Positions 6,884 to 19,990 of a stretch of 22,489 bases of DNA are shown here, piece by piece. The position numbers were made by a program, and so were the translations under genes. Every line of letters starts with the position of its first letter. Positions within the stretch are counted from its first letter, which is position 1. This DNA comes from a virus. The stretch lies in the IMG/VR virus record IMGVR_UViG_3300037297_000368, positions 1 through 22,489 of that record; one strand, given 5' to 3'. Under the pieces are notes generated by a model. The model was not told where the DNA came from. It ran no database searches and worked only from the letters and a program-made list of their open reading frames with translations.

Positions 6884-8458
6884 ATGGCAATCCCAGTTGC
6901 TCAGGCAGGCGCGGACCAGTCCTTCGCCTACAGCGCGAGCCCCGTCACGGTGACACTTGCCGGTGCGGCCACCAACTCGCCGACCGCATGGGAGTGGACG
7001 ATGCTCTCGGTGCCGTCGGGCTCCTCGGCCGACTCCGGCTCGAATCAGGACTTCACCGATGGCGTGTCCAGCCTGCAGAACCCCGACTTCGACATGGACG
7101 TGCCAGGCTGCTACGTCTTGCAGCTGCGAGCCCAGAACGCCGAGGGCTGGAGCGATCCGATCCTCGACAAGGAAGGTGGGCAGACCCTCTGCTTCATGCG
7201 GACGGAGAAGTTCGACCTCGAGATCCCGGGCTACCAGGGCTACCGGTACGATCCGTACATCAACGGGTCCCTCCTCGACCTCGAGACCGGCCTCGCCGAC
7301 CACAGCGCGCGGCACGACCCCGGGGGAGACGATGCAGTCACCACGGCCGCCCCGGGCGCTACCGGCGTCGCCACGGCTTCCGCAGAAGGTTCTGCCGCGT
7401 CCTTCGCCCGCTCTGACCATGCACATCAGTCGAACACGGCTCCGGCCGATACGACCAAGGCAGCCGCTGCCATCGGGACCAGTGGGGAGCCCGCCAGGGC
7501 TGATCACAAGCACGACGTGACCACGGCGGCGCCAGCCGCGGCTGGGGTTGGAACCGCCTCCGGCGAAGGGTCGGCCACCACCCTGGCACGCTCCGATCAC
7601 TCGCATCAGTCCAACACAGCACCAGCGGATACCACAAAGGCGGCTGCGGCCATCGGTACCTCCACCGAGCCGGCCCGCGCCGATCACAAGCACGACGTGA
7701 CCACGGCAGCACCGGCGGCTGCTGGGGTCGGCACTGCTTCTGGTGAGGGGTCTGCAACGACGCTTGCTCGATCAGATCACAGCCATCAGTCCAACACGGC
7801 CCCTGCCGATGTGACCAAGGCAGCTGCAGCCATCGGTACGTCCACGGAACCGGCGCGAGCCGATCACAAACATGACGCGAGCACCGCAACTGCGGGGGCT
7901 GCCACGCCTGGCGACTCGGCCGCAGAGGGATCGGCTACCTCGCTGGCCCGCTCGGACCACCAACACAGCCTGCCCGCGTTCGGCACCGGCTCGGGGACCT
8001 TCTGTGAGGGCAACGACTCGCGGCTGAGTGACGCTCGCACGCCGACGGCCCACGACCTCGGTGGGGCCGAACACACCGCCGACGCCCTGGCTGACCTGAA
8101 CGGCAAGATCACGGACTACAGTCTGGGCTCACCCGTGACGGCTCAGGCCAGCACGCCGCTCTCCCTGACGGCCAACGACTCAGGCAAGGTCTACACGAAC
8201 GAGGGCGCCTCCGCCCAGATCGTGTTCAACCTGCCTACGGCAGCAGCCGGCCTCGACTTCACGTTCATCGTGCAGGACGCCGATGGCATCCAGGTCGTGG
8301 CTGCCTCCGGAGATACCATCAGGATCGCTGCGTCGGCGACACCGGCGGCCGGCAACATCTCAACCACGACCGTGGGGAACACGGTGAAGCTCGTCGCGAT
8401 CAATGCCACCGAGTGGGTCGCGGTGTACTACGTCGGCACCTGGACGGTTTCAAGCTAG
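6884..8458 (+). CDS. Tail fibre protein with repeated His-x-His motifs
   Basis: A 524-residue protein; AGGAG (6872-6876) is seven bases before ATG. Residues ~3-100 look like a PKD/Ig-like domain (VTVTLAGAATNSPTAWEWTM). Residues 152-361 are 3.5 copies of a 60-residue repeat, each with two DH-x-H motifs. His pairs fall at 179/181, 208/210, 239/241, 268/270, 299/301, 328/330 and 359/361. Next comes GNDSRLSDARTPTAH (376-390), a motif widely seen in phage tail fibres. Residues ~420-524 form a C-terminal beta domain (LTANDSGKVYTNEGA, FTFIVQDADG, ending GTWTVSS) of a kind common at fibre ends. In T4 gp37 and similar trimeric fibres HxH motifs bind iron along the three-fold axis; metal binding here is inferred from that. 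It probably forms a trimeric fibre shaft with a receptor-facing or baseplate-facing tip. Confidence 0.92.
   Translation: MAIPVAQAGADQSFAYSASPVTVTLAGAATNSPTAWEWTMLSVPSGSSADSGSNQDFTDGVSSLQNPDFDMDVPGCYVLQLRAQNAEGWSDPILDKEGGQTLCFMRTEKFDLEIPGYQGYRYDPYINGSLLDLETGLADHSARHDPGGDDAVTTAAPGATGVATASAEGSAASFARSDHAHQSNTAPADTTKAAAAIGTSGEPARADHKHDVTTAAPAAAGVGTASGEGSATTLARSDHSHQSNTAPADTTKAAAAIGTSTEPARADHKHDVTTAAPAAAGVGTASGEGSATTLARSDHSHQSNTAPADVTKAAAAIGTSTEPARADHKHDASTATAGAATPGDSAAEGSATSLARSDHQHSLPAFGTGSGTFCEGNDSRLSDARTPTAHDLGGAEHTADALADLNGKITDYSLGSPVTAQASTPLSLTANDSGKVYTNEGASAQIVFNLPTAAAGLDFTFIVQDADGIQVVAASGDTIRIAASATPAAGNISTTTVGNTVKLVAINATEWVAVYYVGTWTVSS
7337..7966 (+). repeat. 180-bp tandem repeat, 3.5 copies, coding for His-x-His shaft
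   Basis: Exact 180-base periodicity is seen: the GATCACAA sequence recurs at 7502, 7682 and 7862. Each 60-residue unit is two related halves of 31 and 29 residues, one ending ARSDHSHQ and the other ARADHKHD. Copies at 7502-7681 and 7682-7861 differ at 38 of 180 bases by my count but at only one of 60 residues (Thr to Val). The first and last half-units are the most diverged in protein sequence. Confidence 0.95.
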
Positions 8459-8466
8459 GAAGCTAG

Positions 8467-11265
8467 ATGGCAGGCTACGGCGAACAATACGGGGTTGGAC
8501 AGTACGGGCTGGAGAGCAGCAGTCGTGCCCCAGTCCTTCTTCAGAACCAGTCCCCTGCCGACGGCGCAGTGGATGTCACGCCGTACACGAAGATCTACCT
8601 CGAGCTGACCGACGCCGACGGCGATCTCGCCGAGGCGACTGTTCTCCTCAAGATCAACGGTGTGACGGCCTGGTCCGGCGACGCCGAGCAGCCCGGCTTC
8701 TCGGTCACCAAGACCGCGATCACCAATGGCTTCAGCTACCTCATCAGCCCCTCAAAGCCTCTCGAGCGCGGCAGCCAGGCCATCGTCGATGTCTACGCCG
8801 AAGACGGCATCGCCAACATCCTGCGAGGCCACTGGCACTTCACCGTCGGCGTCGGCGAGTGGCTGCTCAAGCGCGACCACTTTGACAACGAGACGGTGGA
8901 CGCGGATGCCTACGCCGGAAACGGTATCATCACCGAGCCCGCAGGCTCCGACCTGAAGCTCGATTGCCCCAACAGCGCAAATTGCGACTGGTACAGCAGC
9001 ATCAACAATGCGCCTCGGGCCTCCTATGCCATGGCCGACGTTGTCGGCACCAAGCCGCGTCGCACTGGCCTCTTCGTGCTTGAGTGCCGCATGACGGACT
9101 GGGCGGCCACGGCAGCAAACGTGGCTGGCGGCCTCTGCGTTTTCGATGACTACCAGAATGCCTATCAGGCCTTCTTCTACGAGCCCACCGATGACTACCG
9201 AGTCGACAGGCTGTTGGCCAACGTCGGCGCGAATCTCTACCAGGGGGGCGACGGCCAGCCGCATCCGAGCTCCAACGTCTGGAAGTTCGCCATCGTCTGG
9301 AACGATAGCGACTACACCCGGCGGGCCAGGCTCAGTGGGTTTGGCTACACGACGGCGGACTACACCGATATCCCCGGGCGGCAGATTCGCTTCTACGTCT
9401 CCGTCAACGATGGAACCTCGTGGACTCTCATGCACACGCGGACCATCGACACCGGCCTGGACCTCAACCACGTTGGCGTCTACCAGAAGAAGTGGGATGC
9501 CGGAGCTTCGGCCAACTCCCAGGCGTACTTCGACTATCTCGAGCTGTGGGAGCTTGAGCCTCCCGAGCAAGTCTACGAGCAGAAGGAACCAGGCGACGCC
9601 TTCGGCGACGTCGAAGGCTCTCAAAGCATCACACCAAAGGCCAGCATCGAGGATGCCTCCACGGTCTCGTCGGACGCCGAGGGCCCTCTCGCCCATGGGC
9701 CCCAGGTTCCCATGGGTGTCAGACTGCCCGGCCCTGCGGGCCAACAGCCCGGCACCGTTGGCCCCTTCGACGCGGCGGGCATCGAGGACGAGTCCACGCC
9801 GCTGCAGGATCTGGCCCTCACCGGCCAACCTCTGGGCATTGGCCAGCAGGCCCAGGACGACGTCCAGCTCGGACGGGCAACCGCCGGCCTCGAGGACGTC
9901 TCAGAGTACTTCGCGAGCATCGCGACTGACTACCGCACCGACACGACGGATGGTGAGGGCCATGCCCATTTCATCGGCGAGCGTGTGGTCTACGCCTTCG
10001 TCTACGAGGCCGCGAACGAGGGCGCCCTGTGGACCACACCAACAGACCCAGCCTTCACGGGCTACGGCCAGGACGGCTACGAGTACATCGCAGGCGTTCA
10101 GCAGCCCGCCGGCCCCCATGCCCCCTGGGCCACGGAGGGAGCTGGGACCGATCGGAGCTCCCGCGTCGACTTTCCGGACAAGGTGCTCATCTGTGTGACC
10201 TTCTCGGGGCACAGTCTCACCCCAGCAGAGGTGGTGATCTTCGATCTCGATGGCTACCCGACCAATTTGAACGTGTGGATGCGCTTCCGTTTTGGCACCT
10301 CTGGTGGCAACTACACCATGCTGGGCCGGGTCAACCAGAAGCCGACCAAGGTCCGCATGGCCGGCGGCGTCATGGTCGTGTGCACCGAGGAGGGCGACTA
10401 CCGCGGCGGCCTGCACATCGTCAACTTCAAGGCCTCGGGCCAGGACTGCGCCCACCACATTCGCTCTGACAACCATTTCAAGTGGGTGCCGGGCAATGGA
10501 ATCGCCGACAGGAATCTGACCGGCGCCAGTCAGTGGACCACGACCGGTGTCTCGCCCTCACTCCGCATCGAGTCCGAAGAGGTGTGGGACATCTCGATGC
10601 ACGCCGACGCAGATGATGTCTGGGTGGCCGTAGGGGGCGAGGATCCCGGCCCGAATCTTCTCCGCATCCAGGACGTCCCGAACTGGATGATCGACACCAC
10701 GGGGGATGTGGGTGAGGCCAACATCGGCGACAAGCGCAACATGATTTTCGACGAGAACGGTTGGCTGTTCCTGAGCATCGACAACCAGGTCTACCGGGTG
10801 ATCCCCCAGGACTACGAGGAGGGCCTGATCCACCTGGACTCCACGGACCGTTTCAAGCGCATCGGCAGCGAGTCGGTGACCGCTCGCATGCCGACGACCA
10901 TCAAGCAGATGGAGTCGGAGGGTCGCTACATCTACCTCGCGCTGGAGTCGGGCATCTACATGATGCACGTGGCAACAATGGACTTCTGGCTGGCCTACAC
11001 CGCCCCGGGAGATGGAGGCAAAGGGCGCGACAACGGCTCACCAGGTGCCGGCGAGCTGCTCGCTGGAGGCGACTCGGACATCAAGAGCATGGCCATCACC
11101 CGTCGCTACATGACCGAGCTCTCGACCTGGATGCACTACCTGACCGTGGCCACACGGAGCGGCGCCACCGTGATCCGGCTCTGGGACGAGGTCGTGGTGG
11201 ACAGCAGGACCTTTGACGACCTGCACGAGCCAGGCGCCTGGTTCAACGTCTCGAAAGCGGAGTAG
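8467..11265 (+). CDS. Ig + jelly-roll + propeller-like phage adhesin, paralogue A
   Basis: A 932-residue protein with AGGA (8457-8460) six bases before ATG. Residues ~20-120 form an Ig-like domain (LLQNQSPADGAVDVTPYTKI ... VDVYAEDG). Residues ~137-362 form a jelly-roll (concanavalin-like) domain starting DHFDNETVD and closing FDYLELWEL. A Pro/Gly hinge follows (PKASIED, then RLPGPAGQQPG from residue 419). A GHAH motif lies at 498-501, and NVWMRF at ~602-607 opens a beta-rich C-terminal part with repeated short strands (DDVWVAVGGED, GWLFLSIDNQVYRVI, YIYLALESGIYMMHV), which looks like a beta-propeller. The next gene is a paralogue sharing the jelly roll, hinge, HxH and WMRF segments. Both folds suit surface-glycan contact. 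No catalytic residues are recognised. It ends TAG only three bases before the next ATG, in the same frame. Confidence 0.9.
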   Translation: MAGYGEQYGVGQYGLESSSRAPVLLQNQSPADGAVDVTPYTKIYLELTDADGDLAEATVLLKINGVTAWSGDAEQPGFSVTKTAITNGFSYLISPSKPLERGSQAIVDVYAEDGIANILRGHWHFTVGVGEWLLKRDHFDNETVDADAYAGNGIITEPAGSDLKLDCPNSANCDWYSSINNAPRASYAMADVVGTKPRRTGLFVLECRMTDWAATAANVAGGLCVFDDYQNAYQAFFYEPTDDYRVDRLLANVGANLYQGGDGQPHPSSNVWKFAIVWNDSDYTRRARLSGFGYTTADYTDIPGRQIRFYVSVNDGTSWTLMHTRTIDTGLDLNHVGVYQKKWDAGASANSQAYFDYLELWELEPPEQVYEQKEPGDAFGDVEGSQSITPKASIEDASTVSSDAEGPLAHGPQVPMGVRLPGPAGQQPGTVGPFDAAGIEDESTPLQDLALTGQPLGIGQQAQDDVQLGRATAGLEDVSEYFASIATDYRTDTTDGEGHAHFIGERVVYAFVYEAANEGALWTTPTDPAFTGYGQDGYEYIAGVQQPAGPHAPWATEGAGTDRSSRVDFPDKVLICVTFSGHSLTPAEVVIFDLDGYPTNLNVWMRFRFGTSGGNYTMLGRVNQKPTKVRMAGGVMVVCTEEGDYRGGLHIVNFKASGQDCAHHIRSDNHFKWVPGNGIADRNLTGASQWTTTGVSPSLRIESEEVWDISMHADADDVWVAVGGEDPGPNLLRIQDVPNWMIDTTGDVGEANIGDKRNMIFDENGWLFLSIDNQVYRVIPQDYEEGLIHLDSTDRFKRIGSESVTARMPTTIKQMESEGRYIYLALESGIYMMHVATMDFWLAYTAPGDGGKGRDNGSPGAGELLAGGDSDIKSMAITRRYMTELSTWMHYLTVATRSGATVIRLWDEVVVDSRTFDDLHEPGAWFNVSKAE
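9721..9789 (+). repeat. Conserved hinge segment, copy A
   Basis: This codes for 23 residues beginning RLPGPAGQQPG and ending AGIED. It matches 12082-12150 in the downstream paralogue at 19 of 23 residues and 58 of 69 bases by my count, well above what surrounds it. It lies between the jelly roll and the variable middle of the protein, where a recombination crossover could swap modules. Confidence 0.85.
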
Positions 11266-11268
11266 ACC

Positions 11269-14130
11269 ATGGCCTGGGCACAGAGATTCTTCGACGACTT
11301 CGACAACGCCACGGTTGACGTCCAGCAGGACGCACAAAACGGGACCATCACGGAGCCGGCCGGTACCGAGCTCGTCCTCTCCGGTTCGGCTGGCACAACT
11401 TGTCGTTGGGACGATGCCGGGCGAGACCGTCCATGCGCCTACGAGGAGATCTTAACCCACGACCCGAAGGGGTACGGCTTCTACAAGTTCGAGGCTAAAG
11501 TCTCCGGTTTGACCAAGACCGGCGTCGAGGTCCTTGCAGGTTTGTGTTTGTGGGGTCCAACCAGCAAGCACGCATACCTGACAGGCTGGTACGACTCCAA
11601 CGACGATGTCTACCTCCAGCGCTTGTTGGAGGGTACGGAGTGGGGCACGCGGTGGAACGGTGGCAACTACGGGAACCCGGAGACCACACCGCACATCTAC
11701 CAGCTATTCGTGAACCTGACAGCCCGTCGTCAGTACATCGAGGACATCGGCGTCTATCTGGACCCGAACGAGATCGGTTTCCGCTTCAGCGCCAACAACG
11801 GCTCCAGTTATGTCTGGGCGTACAAAGAGGGCCTCGCCTTCATCCCGACGCGCTTCGGCGTCTACGCCCGCAACTGGTCCACAGGCAGCTACCGTGGATT
11901 CGATGCAGCATTTGACTACCTCGAGTTCTCCGAGTGGGACGACGTTGTCCTCAAGGTCGACGAGCCAACCGGCGAGGGCATCGAGACGCACCCTCAGCCC
12001 AAGGCCTCCATCGAGGAGGGCGCCACGCGCCTCGGGCAGAGCGGCCCGGTCGACTTCAGCCAGCAGATCGAGGGCGTCCAGCGCCTGCCCGGCCCCGTGG
12101 CCCAACAGCCCGGGTCGGTTGGGCCCTTCGACACGGCAGGCATCGAGGACCGCTCCATCCCTGGTCTGCCTCAATCTGGCGAAGACCATCACGGTCAGCC
12201 AGAGTGGGGTGACGGCCGAAAGCCGCACGTGCATCAGGCCGGCCTTGAAGTCCCTGTCTTCGGCGGCGTGGTCGACGCTGACTACCTGCCGGAGAAGGAC
12301 GACGCCGATGGCGCCGAGTTCCTCGACGGGCTGCACGTCCTGGGCATGGCCAGGATTGACACCACGGTGGGCGGCTTTGGCGATCCGACGGCCAACAACC
12401 ACTGGGGTGTGGCCCGCGACGGCAAGATCTACGCCGACGGCGTGGAGTGTGGTCCGGGTGTATTCGGCACCCTCGCCAGCGGTGTCGATCACGAGCATTG
12501 GTGCTTCTCGTTGATCGATCCATTTGGTAAGAGCGCAGTTGGCTCCATCCCATCCATGGTGGCCGACGACCAGATTCGCTTCGTGGTCTCCGGCTACTCT
12601 GGCGGTTGGGCCAATGGAGCCAAGGCCTCCTCGGAGCTGAAGTGGTTCCTCCAAGGCGACTTCGACATCCAGGTGGACTTCTCCGGTCTCTCCGTGACGG
12701 GGACGGGTTACAACCTGTGCCTATACTGCGTGGCCAACAACAGCGGTGGCGAGGGCACGAATCGGGTTCGCGTGGCCTACGACGGCACCAACTACTACCA
12801 TGCCCGCACCAACAACGGCGCGTATGTGAACAAAGGCTCGACGTCTGTTCCCGGGAACACCAGCGGCAAGCTGCGCATCACCCGCACCGGTAGCACCTGG
12901 CAGGGCTACTACTGGACAGGCTCAGCCTGGGCAACGGTGGGCTCTGCCTTCAGCGATAGCAACGTCGGCAGCGGAGACGTCTTCATCGACATCAACCTCG
13001 ACGTGAACAATGCCAACGGGCAGGTGGACTACTCCAGCTTCATCATCACCTCGGGCACCACCACCAACAGGGCCGGCTGGTACCGTGAGAGCAGCGGCGA
13101 CCACCGTGGCACTCAGGCCGACATGCCCAACGTGCTCGGTGTGGTCACAACGGATGCCTCTCTGGACCTGATCGACCTGACCAACGACAAGCTCTGGATG
13201 CGCTTCCAGCAGGGAACCAACAACGTGTTGGGTGCAACAGCTGCGAACACACGACCGCGCCGCGTCGCCTGGGACGACGGCCAGCTGTTCGTCGCCTACG
13301 GCAGCCATTCGGCAGAGGGTGGCGCAGCCATCGCGATTGACTTCACGCATGACGTGGTGCGCTGGCATCGGGAGCAGGCAGCCAGCGAGACCGGAGGAGT
13401 CTACAGGGGCACCTTTGGCCGGGCAGCCGGCGTGATTGCCCTGCGCAACAGCGCGACGGCGGGCTACAGCGGAGACGATGACGCCTGGCGTATTCCGGAC
13501 TACCGGGTCTACGACGTGGCACTCTATCGTGATAGTGGTGAGGAGTTCAGGGCCATCGCCACGTTGGAGGGCCTGGCGATGTTCAAGTGGACCCGGTGGT
13601 ACACCGCATCGCCTGGGTTCGAGTACTCGCTGAGCAACGAGACCACGCACATGCGCTGGTGCTTCATCGATCCAAGCACCGGCGAGCTCTTCTACATGGA
13701 CACCACCAAGATGTACTCCGAGCCTCGAACCACTGGCTGGGAGGCCGCCATGACGGGTGGCACCTTCACTGCCAACAGCAACAAGGATCTACCGGGCACC
13801 CGCAAGTTCGAGCCACAGTGGACTGCGGTGAAGTACGGCTCGTACCTCTTCGTTCCGGCGGCGGAGGGCGTCTATCGCGTGGATTGGCCCTCGGGATCTT
13901 GGACCTTATTCTATGGAAAGGCGGGAAGTGGCGCGACGCATGAGATCTTGAACGACTACGACCTGGTGCACACCATCACGCTGGGTAACGACGGGACGTT
14001 GGATCTCCTGGCGATTGCCACGGCCCGACGGTACGCCGGGCAGGTCACCCTGGTCAGGCTGGACACCAACGTGGTCTACGGCCTGAGTAAGGTCGAGGAC
14101 CTGAAAATCTGCAACTCGGTGGCGGCATAA
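11269..14130 (+). CDS. Jelly-roll + propeller-like phage adhesin, paralogue B with inserted lectin-like domain
   Basis: A 953-residue paralogue of the preceding gene, starting three bases after its stop with GGAG (11259-11262) six bases before ATG. It lacks the N-terminal Ig domain: the jelly roll starts at residue 7 (FFDDFDNATVD) and closes at ~222 (FDYLEFSEW). The hinge RLPGPVAQQPG starts at 272 and an HVH motif lies at 320-322. Residues ~440-600 form a second jelly-roll-like domain absent from paralogue A (GDFDIQVDFSG, YNLCLYCVANN, KLRITRTGSTWQGYYWTGSA). It sits between the hinge and the shared KLWMRF segment at 642-647, making the hinge-to-WMRF distance about 371 residues instead of 185. 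The C-terminal part is again propeller-like (RRVAWDDGQLFVAYGSH). It is probably a virion-surface glycan-binding protein. Its stop TAA overlaps the next start (TAATG). Confidence 0.9.
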   Translation: MAWAQRFFDDFDNATVDVQQDAQNGTITEPAGTELVLSGSAGTTCRWDDAGRDRPCAYEEILTHDPKGYGFYKFEAKVSGLTKTGVEVLAGLCLWGPTSKHAYLTGWYDSNDDVYLQRLLEGTEWGTRWNGGNYGNPETTPHIYQLFVNLTARRQYIEDIGVYLDPNEIGFRFSANNGSSYVWAYKEGLAFIPTRFGVYARNWSTGSYRGFDAAFDYLEFSEWDDVVLKVDEPTGEGIETHPQPKASIEEGATRLGQSGPVDFSQQIEGVQRLPGPVAQQPGSVGPFDTAGIEDRSIPGLPQSGEDHHGQPEWGDGRKPHVHQAGLEVPVFGGVVDADYLPEKDDADGAEFLDGLHVLGMARIDTTVGGFGDPTANNHWGVARDGKIYADGVECGPGVFGTLASGVDHEHWCFSLIDPFGKSAVGSIPSMVADDQIRFVVSGYSGGWANGAKASSELKWFLQGDFDIQVDFSGLSVTGTGYNLCLYCVANNSGGEGTNRVRVAYDGTNYYHARTNNGAYVNKGSTSVPGNTSGKLRITRTGSTWQGYYWTGSAWATVGSAFSDSNVGSGDVFIDINLDVNNANGQVDYSSFIITSGTTTNRAGWYRESSGDHRGTQADMPNVLGVVTTDASLDLIDLTNDKLWMRFQQGTNNVLGATAANTRPRRVAWDDGQLFVAYGSHSAEGGAAIAIDFTHDVVRWHREQAASETGGVYRGTFGRAAGVIALRNSATAGYSGDDDAWRIPDYRVYDVALYRDSGEEFRAIATLEGLAMFKWTRWYTASPGFEYSLSNETTHMRWCFIDPSTGELFYMDTTKMYSEPRTTGWEAAMTGGTFTANSNKDLPGTRKFEPQWTAVKYGSYLFVPAAEGVYRVDWPSGSWTLFYGKAGSGATHEILNDYDLVHTITLGNDGTLDLLAIATARRYAGQVTLVRLDTNVVYGLSKVEDLKICNSVAA
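12082..12150 (+). repeat. Conserved hinge segment, copy B
   Basis: This is the second copy of the 23-residue hinge (RLPGPVAQQPG to AGIED). It differs from 9721-9789 at four residues and 11 bases. A looser match, PKASIE, precedes the hinge in both proteins. Confidence 0.85.
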
Positions 14131-15626: not shown

Positions 15627-17009
15627 ATGGCAAGCCAGACCTACTACTGCGCCCAGCTCACTCACGGTTTCTACAAGGTCACCATCCCAAGTGGCGCATC
15701 GCCGACACCCACGGTGGCCGACAAGGTGGCCATCGGGACCTCGGTCAACTCTCGCTGGGGCATCTGGGTCTTCGGACCTACCAAGCAAGAAATCTGGGTG
15801 GCGGGCAATGGCCATGCCACTGCAGCAAGCTCGTCGACGTTGTGGCGCTCCCAGAACGGTGGCGTGTCCTTCACCAATGAGTACTCCCGGTTGACGGGCA
15901 CACCGCCGGAGCAGAACGATGTAGGCGTCCTGATGGGGATCGGAACTGCTCCGGCTGGCAATCTGTTCGCGGCGGGCAGCGCCGCGTTCGTCGGCAACAA
16001 GTTGTGGCGGGCGCCATCTCCGTTGAACGGAAATCCGTTCAGCGTGGAGATCACCCCATCCTCCGGCGGCGTCAACCAGATGTACGCCGTGGAGAACCCT
16101 ACGCGGCTGTGGACCACCGAGGGGAATGTTCTCGCTGTCGCCGTGATCCACTATTGGAACGGCAGCACTTGGACTGTGGCGAGCAAGACCGGGATCACTT
16201 GGAGGCCACCGGCCACCAATATTGGCCTATTCGGAGGTGTCTGGATCGATGCGGCCAACAACCGGGTCTACATCATGGCCCGGGACAACAACACTCCGCC
16301 GCATTACTACGTGTTCCGCAAGGCCGCGGATGCACCAGCAGATCCGTGGGTAGAAGACAACTATTTCGGCGCCATCGTGACTACAGGTTGGAGCCCGCGA
16401 GGATTCGGGAGCAATTTCTCCAGACAGCTCAACGGGTGCCAAAAAACGGGCGCAGTGTACATGCTCTATAGTGGGCTGGCCAACAAAAGCACGCTCCAGC
16501 GTCGAGATCCCGGCACCGGAGTCTGGTCACTGGTCAAAGCGACCACAGGCGTGAGCCCCCAGGTCGATCTGTGGGTGGTCGATGACGACCACCTGCTGGC
16601 CTTCCCAATCTGCAAGAACGAGACCGGCTACTACGAGATCGGTGTGGACATTCCGGCGCTCCCGGGCGGCGAGCAGCCGATGGCCGTCTGGGGCGACACG
16701 GAGTATCCGGACACCGATGCCCCATACCTGGACAATCTCAGTCCCTACGACACCGAGGTGGGCGTGGACCCATTCGGCAACATCGTGCTTGAGATCCACG
16801 ATGACGGCGACGGCGTGAACGCTGCGTCGGTGGACATCACGGTCAACGGCGATCTGGTCTGGACGGCTGACGCCGAAGCTGACCCGAGCAATTACGCTGT
16901 GAGCAAGACGGTTCTCGGCACCGGCTTCCGCTATACCATCAATCCGGTGGGCATGCTGCCTCCAGGCACGACGACCGTGCAGGTCTACGCGGAGGACCTA
17001 GCGCCATGA
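15627..17009 (+). CDS. Beta-propeller-like protein with C-terminal Ig-like domain
   Basis: A 460-residue protein three bases after the previous stop, in the same frame and preceded by GAGAGG (15612-15617). Residues ~1-350 are short beta repeats with many Trp and Gly (WGIWVFGPTKQEIWVAGNGH, NKLWRAPSPL, NNRVYIMARDNN, DLWVVDDDHLLAF). They include one Asp-box-like element, SQNGGVSF (75-82), of the type found in sialidase/BNR propellers. Catalytic sialidase residues are not evident, so a binding role is more likely. Residues 362-460 are an Ig-like domain (APYLDNLSPYDTEVGVDPFG ... TTVQVYAEDLAP). It stops before the closing strand, and the next gene begins with what looks like that strand. The stop TGA overlaps the next ATG as ATGA. 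The protein is probably part of the receptor-binding apparatus. Confidence 0.87.
   Translation: MASQTYYCAQLTHGFYKVTIPSGASPTPTVADKVAIGTSVNSRWGIWVFGPTKQEIWVAGNGHATAASSSTLWRSQNGGVSFTNEYSRLTGTPPEQNDVGVLMGIGTAPAGNLFAAGSAAFVGNKLWRAPSPLNGNPFSVEITPSSGGVNQMYAVENPTRLWTTEGNVLAVAVIHYWNGSTWTVASKTGITWRPPATNIGLFGGVWIDAANNRVYIMARDNNTPPHYYVFRKAADAPADPWVEDNYFGAIVTTGWSPRGFGSNFSRQLNGCQKTGAVYMLYSGLANKSTLQRRDPGTGVWSLVKATTGVSPQVDLWVVDDDHLLAFPICKNETGYYEIGVDIPALPGGEQPMAVWGDTEYPDTDAPYLDNLSPYDTEVGVDPFGNIVLEIHDDGDGVNAASVDITVNGDLVWTADAEADPSNYAVSKTVLGTGFRYTINPVGMLPPGTTTVQVYAEDLAP
16991..16996 (+). promoter_or_regulatory. Shine-Dalgarno inside upstream gene, with ATGA start-stop overlap
   Basis: GGAGGA lies nine bases before the ATG at 17006, within the last codons of the propeller gene. 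The ATG shares four bases with the upstream stop (ATGA at 17006-17009). This is the classic layout for translational coupling, keeping the two products near equal amounts. Confidence 0.75.
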
Positions 17010-19990
17010 GCCCCAACGTACTCGACACCAGCTACACCTTTGACACCGGCGGGGTCACCTACTCCTTCACCACAAGCCTGGGTGACATTCTCACCCGGGT
17101 GCCGATGGCCGCCTGGTATCTGGACTTCGTCAAGAAGAGCAACCTGGCGACCAATCCGGTCATCGCCAACCGATTCCCGCCGCCTCCGATTCCGGCCTCG
17201 CTGGAGGGCTCCGTCTACGAGCCCTTCGAGCTCGAGTCCGGCGATGTCCTCACGGTGGGCACCCCAATTGGGGCCTCGCTCGAATCTGCCATCGCAGAGC
17301 CCTACAACCTGTCCGATGGTGACACCCTGGAGCTGCGCATCGATGGAGGTTACACACAGGAGTTCGTGCTATCCGGCCTGACGGCCGGCGCCGCCACCGC
17401 GGAGGAAGTGGCACGCTCCATCCACGCCACCATCCGCAAGGCCCGGGCGGCTATCTCCTCCAGCGAGACCAAGGTCACCATCTACTCCAAGAGCCTGGGC
17501 GAGGACTCGCAGGTCTATGTCTCCGGGGGCACCGCGGCGGCCATCCTCGGCTTCGACACCAACCCGATCACGGGCCCCGTATTCGGCGCCGATGGCGAGG
17601 AGAGCGTCGAGTTCGACGCTGTGGCCGCCAAGGTGGACAGTGGCAATACGGCGGCCTTCGATCTGGACGACGGCGACACCCTGGACGTCAAGGTCGACGG
17701 AGGTGTCACGCAAACGATCACCTTCTCGATTGATCAGTTCGCGGACATCGATGTCGCCCTGGTCGGTGAGATCATCGCGGTCATCAACGACCAGCTGAAT
17801 GGGGCAACCGCCTCAGGAGCAGAAGGGGACTCCAAGGTCAGGATCTCCTCGCACACCCTGGGCACCGGGTCGAGCATCCAGGTCACCGGCGGCACCGCAA
17901 ACGCCGCCGGCAAGCTCAACTTCCCCACCTCGATCGAGACCGGCAGCGGGGACTTCGTCGACCTGTGGCAGGCCACGGCGGTCGAGGTCCGGGACTACCT
18001 CAATGCGAGCCTGACTCTCTCCGAGGCCTCGATCGCCGCCGAGGGCCTTCGGGTCCGCATCACCACCGCGGCCCGGGAGCGAGTGATCTGCAGTGGATCG
18101 GCAGCCCTCGCTCTGGGCATTGCCTCTTCGGGACGAGTTACGAGTAGCAACGCCGAGCCCTTCAGGATCACCAAGGGCCAAACTATAAAGGTCAAGGTCG
18201 ATGGTGGTCCAGAACAGACCATCGTCCTCACCCCTCATGGAACCCTGAACACCCAGGACCTGGCCGCAGAGGCCGTGGTCGACCTCCTCAACTTCTACCT
18301 GTCCGGCGCCACGGCGTACACCTCGGAGGACGGCACCAAGGTCGCCATCGTCTCCAACTCCACCACCACGCCCAGCACGGTCGAGGTGACCGGCGGCAGC
18401 GCCAACCCGGAGATGGCCTTCCCGGAGAACTCCGAGGGCTCCGGGGTGGGCATCTCGGACTTGTCCGTGTCGGAGGCCGGAGCCGACGAGGACATTGACC
18501 TGATGCTCTTCGACATCACGTCGTCGGGCTTCGACTGGGTCAAGATCTGGGTCAAGGGCAACTTCGAGCGCAAGCTCATCTGGGACTCCGCCCTGGCCTT
18601 CACCGAGCCGGGCTGGACCGTCACCGAGAGCAAGAGCCCATCACCTGGCTCCGGCGTCGATGACACCTGGAGCATCTCGCTGGCACACAGCACCGACTTC
18701 ACGTCCGACGAGCTCATGTACGTGGAGGTCGAGGCCGAGACCCTGGGTGCCGACAGCCTGAGCACGGTCTACTACTTCGTGGTGGAGGACGTCCGCCAGC
18801 CCACCGTGGTCAAGATCACGGTGCGGCAGCCGGATGTACTGCGCGTCCGGTTCTCCGAGCCCATGAACCAGATCGCGAGTGACTCCAGCTCCTCGCTCTA
18901 CACCCGTGACGTGTCCGGCCGCATCAGCTACTACGAGACCATCAACGTGGGCGGGACCGATTACGACAACGTCGTCGAGGCGCCCGTGGCCAGCTTCGCC
19001 ACGACAGACGTGGGCGCATTCCTCGGCTCGGCCGGCGCCCGCAACTCCCAGAACAACGGCTGCTGGGAGATTCTACAGCGCATCTCGACGACCATGGTCC
19101 AGGTCGACGCCGAGCTGGTCGACGAGGAACCGGCAGACCCTCAGTCGGAGACGCCGCCCTCCGTCTACGTCTCGCCCTACAGGATCAACCGCGTGGACCC
19201 CCCGGCCGGCACGATCCAGCCCTCGTTCCAGCCCATCGTGATCGACGCCACGGCGGTGGCCAGCTCGGCCATCCCCACGGGCGACGAGGTCGGTCGCTAC
19301 GTCGACCTGCAGCTGCACGACGCCCTCAGCCCGGAGCTGACGTACCAGCTCGAGCTCGTCCTGATCGAGGACCCCGCCGGGAACCTCATCGGCTCGACCT
19401 ACACCTTCACCTCGTGGTCTCCCTACGATGTGGAAGGTAGGGAGTTCGAGCTGTGGGAGATGCTCCCGCTGAAGAACAGAGATGAGGACAAGACCGGAGA
19501 CCTCGAGAGATTCGTCAAGTGCTTCGACGAGGCCACCAAGGTCATCCTCTACGACATCGACAGGTTCGGCCGCCTGCTGGACCCCTGGGCCTGCCAGGAC
19601 GAGGCTGTCGACCCGCTGCTGGAGCACCTCGGCAATCCCCTGGCCTTCGTCAGCAGCCTGACGTTGGATCGCAAGCGGGACCTGATTCCCATCCTCGTGC
19701 CCATGTACAAGCAGCGAGGCACCGCCGAGGGCATCGAGGACGCGGTGCAGTTCTTCCTGAACAAGACCGTGGTGGTCAAGCCCTGGAACATACCCGCCGA
19801 CACCTGGGTCCTGGGAGAGTCCCTGTTGGGCTACAACACCTACGTGGGCCCTTCCCAATCCTTCGTCCGATACTCCTTCTTCCTGGAGCACACGGTGACC
19901 TTGACGGATTCGGACAAGAGCATCATCAAAGAGATCGTGGAGTTCATTCGACCCGCGCACACCCACTTCGTGGGCTTCCAGCTGGTCTGA
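17006..19990 (+). CDS. Baseplate gpI-like protein with large Ig/IN-like N-terminal extension
   Basis: A 994-residue protein. Residues ~812-994 match the phage tail protein I (P2 gpI) family in layout: ELWEMLPLKNRDEDKTGDLE with a helix FVKCFDEATKVILYDIDRF, then LLDPWACQDEAVDPLLEHLG, a basic 'KRDLIPILVPMYKQRGTAEG' segment and a closing IIKEIVEFIRPAHTHF. In P2-like phages gpI sits in the baseplate wedge and is usually about 180 residues, so the 810-residue N-terminal part is an extension. It starts with a probable Ig strand (NVLDTSYTFDT). Then come IN-like repeats with E-P-F/Y-x-L-x-x-G-D-x-L starts at residues 72, 98, 216 (AAFDLDDGDTLD) and 384, plus a degenerate copy at ~317-380. An Ig-like region (~485-592) and a SbsA-like Ig domain (~593-810; RVRFSEPMN, LVLIEDPAGN) follow. 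The start is supported by GGAGGA and coupling to the upstream gene. Confidence 0.9.
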   Translation: MSPNVLDTSYTFDTGGVTYSFTTSLGDILTRVPMAAWYLDFVKKSNLATNPVIANRFPPPPIPASLEGSVYEPFELESGDVLTVGTPIGASLESAIAEPYNLSDGDTLELRIDGGYTQEFVLSGLTAGAATAEEVARSIHATIRKARAAISSSETKVTIYSKSLGEDSQVYVSGGTAAAILGFDTNPITGPVFGADGEESVEFDAVAAKVDSGNTAAFDLDDGDTLDVKVDGGVTQTITFSIDQFADIDVALVGEIIAVINDQLNGATASGAEGDSKVRISSHTLGTGSSIQVTGGTANAAGKLNFPTSIETGSGDFVDLWQATAVEVRDYLNASLTLSEASIAAEGLRVRITTAARERVICSGSAALALGIASSGRVTSSNAEPFRITKGQTIKVKVDGGPEQTIVLTPHGTLNTQDLAAEAVVDLLNFYLSGATAYTSEDGTKVAIVSNSTTTPSTVEVTGGSANPEMAFPENSEGSGVGISDLSVSEAGADEDIDLMLFDITSSGFDWVKIWVKGNFERKLIWDSALAFTEPGWTVTESKSPSPGSGVDDTWSISLAHSTDFTSDELMYVEVEAETLGADSLSTVYYFVVEDVRQPTVVKITVRQPDVLRVRFSEPMNQIASDSSSSLYTRDVSGRISYYETINVGGTDYDNVVEAPVASFATTDVGAFLGSAGARNSQNNGCWEILQRISTTMVQVDAELVDEEPADPQSETPPSVYVSPYRINRVDPPAGTIQPSFQPIVIDATAVASSAIPTGDEVGRYVDLQLHDALSPELTYQLELVLIEDPAGNLIGSTYTFTSWSPYDVEGREFELWEMLPLKNRDEDKTGDLERFVKCFDEATKVILYDIDRFGRLLDPWACQDEAVDPLLEHLGNPLAFVSSLTLDRKRDLIPILVPMYKQRGTAEGIEDAVQFFLNKTVVVKPWNIPADTWVLGESLLGYNTYVGPSQSFVRYSFFLEHTVTLTDSDKSIIKEIVEFIRPAHTHFVGFQLV
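17219..18450 (+). repeat. Diverged flagellin-IN-like repeats in the gpI-like protein
   Basis: Repeat starts fall at 17219 (a short, incomplete copy), 17297, 17651 and 18155, with a degenerate copy from about 17954. The full copies share the order GDTL, VDGG, a helix ending near IN, 'KVxIxSxxLG', then VxGGxAN and LxFP. They are recognisable at protein level only; I saw no extended DNA identity. Confidence 0.75.
19439..19990 (+). other. gpI-like baseplate domain (C-terminal of the 994-residue protein)
   Basis: This marks the part that identifies the gene's role: an acidic 'LP-x-x-x-x-x-D' entry, a long helix, a 'D-x-x-x-x-x-LLEHLGNPL' segment, and the K-R-D-L-I-P-x-x-x-x-x-Y-K-Q-R-G-T signature typical of gpI-family tail proteins. 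The family name comes from memory of the pattern, not from a search. Confidence 0.8.

Follow-up and report, generated by a model that had tools for sequence, protein, structure and literature searches.

Why do neighbouring repeats in a phage fibre gene encode almost the same protein with largely different codons? We addressed this question in a 22,489-base virus record (IMGVR_UViG_3300037297_000368), the whole of which is referred to here as the window. A preliminary description of the locus offered two explanations, an old duplication held under strict protein selection, and selection against the DNA identity that would let repeats recombine out. Our data support the former: the silent divergence of the repeats is what strong selection on a protein ordinarily produces, with no evidence of hiding from recombination.

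A repeat array in a tail-fibre-like gene

The gene that carries the array (Table 1) lies within a tail/baseplate cluster, and its 524-aa product matches PHROG 1197 'tail protein' over residues 329–458 only, in the C-terminal part (E 4e-11). The cluster includes a gene at 17006–19990 which matches TIGR02242, a phage tail protein domain (E 1.8e-21), and falls slightly short of the cut-off for Tail_P2_I. At 994 aa, the product of this gene is unusually long for the baseplate type; repeated stretches ahead of its TIGR02242/Tail_P2_I-like C-terminus match PHROG 15814 (three stretches). The motif LPGPxxQQPGxVGPFDxAGIEDxS is common to two neighbouring large genes, 8467–11265 and 11269–14130, paralogues that have diverged to 30% identity (over 413 aa, E 7e-35).

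The array consists of three 180-bp copies and a half copy, each later copy retaining 72% nucleotide identity to the first. Every 180-bp repeat comprises two units of ~30 aa with DHxH at the unit end, and the protein contains seven DHxH motifs in all, spaced 29/31 aa. At the protein level R1 is closest to R2 and vice versa (31/31 residues in the first half), and they differ from R0 by 9 and 10 residues, respectively, as expected if the duplications were successive. The nearest protein match of the half copy reaches 90% (in the array L009), and its best match inside its own gene is 58%. A short module after the repeats, at 7970–8060 ('GTFCEGNDSRLSDARTP'), is found in tens of otherwise unrelated viral contigs, with several occurrences per contig in some cases (L030 and L045, for example).

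Table 1. Positions of the gene and its repeats in the window.
Feature	Position	Strand	Basis or remark
Tail-fibre-like gene, 524 aa	6884..8458	+	single open frame; holds the repeat array
Repeat R0, 60 aa (two DHxH half-units)	7337..7516	+	repeat search; 51/60 residues in common with R1
Repeat R1	7517..7696	+	59/60 residues in common with R2
Repeat R2	7697..7876	+	third-position GC 0.55 versus 0.82 expected from residues
Half-repeat R3A, a different unit type	7877..7969	+	closest protein match in another phage
26-nt stretch across the R0/R1 joint	7502..7527	+	exact repeat at 7682–7707 (R1/R2 joint)

Synonymous sites between the repeats are saturated

A codon-by-codon recount of 7502–7681 against 7682–7861 agrees with the preliminary description: 34 of 60 codons differ (38 nucleotides), 33 of them synonymously, the sole residue change is Thr (ACC) to Val (GTG), the first eight codons (DHKHDVTT) are the same, and Ser 34 switches codon family (TCG versus AGC). 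Such a switch is easily made via a non-Ser intermediate since Ser 34 is the x of DHxH, a position free to vary in the family (entropy 2.8 bits). The silent differences are therefore real, but the term 'heavily recoded' does not hold if it means an excess over chance, the amount being that of saturation. Given the gene's own codon usage, R1 and R2 should have the same codon at 24.3 ± 3.5 of their 59 shared residues, and they do so at 24; the other pairs are equally at chance level (R0/R1, 21/51 with 21.6 expected; R0/R2, 21/50 with 21.2 expected). Protein identity between the central repeats is far above chance. Chance-level codon identity in all three pairs demonstrates that synonymous sites between the repeats are saturated.

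The codon-identity bound places the synonymous divergence of the repeats at no less than ~1.6 substitutions per site, and NG86 estimates are dN 0.037 and dS 2.0 for R1/R2 and dN 0.109 and dS 3.4 for R0/R1, giving a dN/dS between copies of ~0.02–0.03. A saturated dS carries little timing information and dates the copies no more finely than 'old'.

Codon identity among relatives and the origin of the repeats

Scanning viral contigs twice and genome contigs once yielded 41 distinct arrays, our own included, with 235 units. The unit skeleton, G-x6-R-x-D-H-x-H, is almost invariant and nearly all remaining positions are variable. Counted from the motif end, G at –13 is conserved in ~100% of units, R at –6 in 94% and D at –4 in 99%, His conservation being no evidence here because the search pattern demanded both His and favoured D, E or N at the preceding position. 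The repeats had no Pfam match and no meaningful PDB sequence match, and an AlphaFold2 model of the array as a single chain (pLDDT 45) was too poor to use. A unit so widely shared and lacking a Pfam match merits a family model.

The combination of frozen protein and random codons extends across phages. For pairs of units that agree in 93% or more of their amino acids, codon identity is within chance (z<1.5) in 9/11 pairs within genes and in 48/52 pairs between loci; one unit is identical between L019 and L083 at 31/31 residues and 8/31 codons, another between L002 and L005 at 29/29 residues and 10/29 codons. Because copies in separate phages cannot recombine each other out, a cause related to recombination is unnecessary to explain this pattern. 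Five relatives (L006, L009, L010, L016 and L087) represent intermediate stages, in which the repeats retain significant DNA similarity: exact matches reach 46 nt in L006, 50 nt in L010 and 26 nt in L016, and L009, with a 128-aa period, has 90% amino acid identity and 72/113 identical codons (z +7). On a contig of 407 kb, L010 has a fibre-like frame of 1,747 aa that contains 28 DHxH motifs, and in it larger periods of 130 and 263 aa are nested over the 31-aa unit. The preliminary description had named two observations that would count against it. Near-identical DNA repeats in relatives were found in part, as the DNA-similar repeats of these five arrays. Synonymous divergence is, as far as testable, no higher between the repeats than in single-copy sequence, the module after the repeats being also codon-randomised between phages; none of six relatives carries the baseplate gene of our phage, sought as a single-copy clock, and only the short module is shared.

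Selection against DNA identity would favour synonymous changes that lower the homology of neighbouring copies, identical copies being lost by recombination or slippage. Codon identity was compared with four null expectations (gene usage, rest-of-genome usage, repeat-only permutation and between-phage pairs) and showed no general deficit, and adjacent repeats pooled over genes are at or above chance (Stouffer ~+4). The longest in-register exact match between copies is 26 nt, against a mean of 14–16 nt under synonymous-codon shuffling along the gene (P = 0.012–0.022 for a match of at least 26 nt), which is the opposite of what this selection predicts. The excess is located at the R0/R1 and R1/R2 joints, where the eight unchanged codons form a modest local excess of identity and no protected element, since the residues DHKHDVTT are coded variously in other phages. 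The most protein-identical tandem arrays (L001–L004), a group picked after the fact, have codon identity slightly below the rest-of-genome expectation (z –0.8 to –1.4 each), but the deficit shrinks to Stouffer –0.8 with a repeat-only permutation, which reflects repeat-local codon usage. The unusual codons of R2 also speak for avoidance, but different phages show the same recoding relative to each other, and codon evenness in the arrays is not raised overall and follows no family-wide trend. A further point in its favour is that in no array does any pair join very high identity in protein to very high identity in DNA (small numbers), which also weighs against an old duplication, under which young duplicates should exist. 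However, short-read metagenome assembly will probably collapse or break near-identical 180-bp repeats. This absence is thus uninformative, as such assembly probably hides identical repeats in any case, and the lack of young duplicates is probably an assembly bias. Our literature search, limited in scope, turned up no account of phage fibre repeats being recoded against recombination. We consider selection against DNA identity improbable as the cause of the divergence, and this half of the preliminary description is not borne out.

The composition of R2 is the one point that an old duplication leaves unexplained. Its third-position GC is far below the prediction from its residues (z –5.4), R0 and R1 are mildly low (z –2.0 and –1.7) and the gene flanks are normal. 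The deviation resides mainly in the first half of R2 (7697–7786; z –5.1 over 30 codons), which is lower than every other overlapping 30-codon block of the window (453 blocks, the lowest at –4.2). The matching unit of L002, the closest relative, is also low (z –5.0), and the two have the same codon at 12/29 positions. Long neutral drift in place is expected to bring third positions close to the equilibrium usage of the genome, although this outcome is not strictly defining. R2 is too low in third-position GC for long drift in this genome, and so part of its divergence may stem from elsewhere: an old import of the unit or local selection on codons could account for it. We give little credence to a more specific proposal, that selection against homologous deletion gave R2, as the newest copy, its unusual codons and left its protein identical; if this were true, the depressed third-position GC of R2 and its L002 counterpart would be the footprint of selected recoding.

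Import could also be invoked for the array as a whole, the units arriving from other phages by recombination at the conserved DHKHDVTT joints, such that the copies had no recent shared DNA ancestor within the gene. Consistent with this, 175 of 235 units find their nearest protein relative in another phage and 47 in their own gene, the third positions of R2 look foreign, the longest exact DNA match sits at the joints, and phages that share units have no other detected gene in common with the window. But R1 and R2 are closest to each other as protein, no donor with matching DNA was found (the best has 78% nucleotide identity and 12/29 codons), and the third-position GC of arrays is no more variable than that of other blocks (Levene P 0.43), with no family-wide trend. 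We therefore regard wholesale import as unlikely. We found no closely related genome, and a search of the collection for isolate phages with the array, which would be free of assembly bias, returned none for the repeats and only short matches to a linker stretch, an absence to which the BLAST low-complexity filter may add. A chance resemblance or comparison artefact, such as a wrong frame or an assembly error, has a negligible probability: the gene is one long open frame with the 180-bp copies in register, and matching arrays occur in tens of independent contigs.

The explanation we favour, and consider likely, is an old tandem duplication of trimeric fibre-shaft units, with the protein held by strong purifying selection and silent sites drifting to randomness. 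The shaft would be a trimer built from ~30-aa units, each ending in G-x6-R-x-D-H-x-H; by analogy with known fibres, each unit may contribute an HxH pair on the three-fold axis, and the metal ion that the motif probably binds would lie on the fibre axis. The number of units would have grown long ago by tandem duplication within the gene, purifying selection on the shaft protein would have held the units nearly identical, and synonymous sites would have drifted meanwhile until mutually random. A point against this view is that many of the sites at which R1 and R2 agree are variable elsewhere in the family, which demands strong selection on sites lacking a universal constraint. The saturated silent sites, the low dN/dS and the same frozen protein in unrelated phages accord with the old duplication under strict protein selection originally proposed. 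The array provides a clean worked case of protein-frozen repeats whose DNA is fully randomised at silent sites, and for 'recoded' repeats the codon identity expected by chance should be the first comparison, ahead of any appeal to selection against recombination.

Metal-binding fibres, polyubiquitin and other protein repeats

The precedent for iron binding by HxH is structural and comes from trimeric phage fibres (PMC6116203, PMC11705849). An HxH pair on the three-fold axis has been solved for the R-type pyocin fibre shaft, the T4 gp37 tip and the P2 gpV and phi92 spikes (PMC6116203), and Alteromonas phage R22Y provides a further iron-binding fibre (PMC11705849). Fibres of this class have a beta-rich trimeric shaft with an octahedral metal site. 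Our array resembles these in its repeated His-x-His within a tail protein and in its tail-module neighbourhood, and differs in its regular 29/31-aa spacing, in the G-x6-R-x-D that precedes HxH and in having no Pfam or PDB sequence match. Its trimer and its metal site are putative.

Polyubiquitin also consists of in-frame tandem repeats with identical protein and synonymous differences between copies, and the long debate over the balance of purifying selection and homogenisation is the subject of a review in PMC10457151, where Nei et al. 2000 and Sharp and Li 1987 are cited. The array has the polyubiquitin-like combination of saturated dS (~2 or more) and low dN (0.037). In contrast to polyubiquitin, it appears to be a phage shaft module, its protein is more variable between lineages, and R0–R2 give no sign of ongoing homogenisation. 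In a survey of protein repeats, Persi, Wolf and Koonin (2016) emphasised that new copies diverge faster (PMC5120217). The repeats described here share with theirs a position within one protein, a probable origin by tandem duplication and purifying selection (dN/dS < 1), but differ from that emphasis in the very low dN/dS between copies (~0.02).
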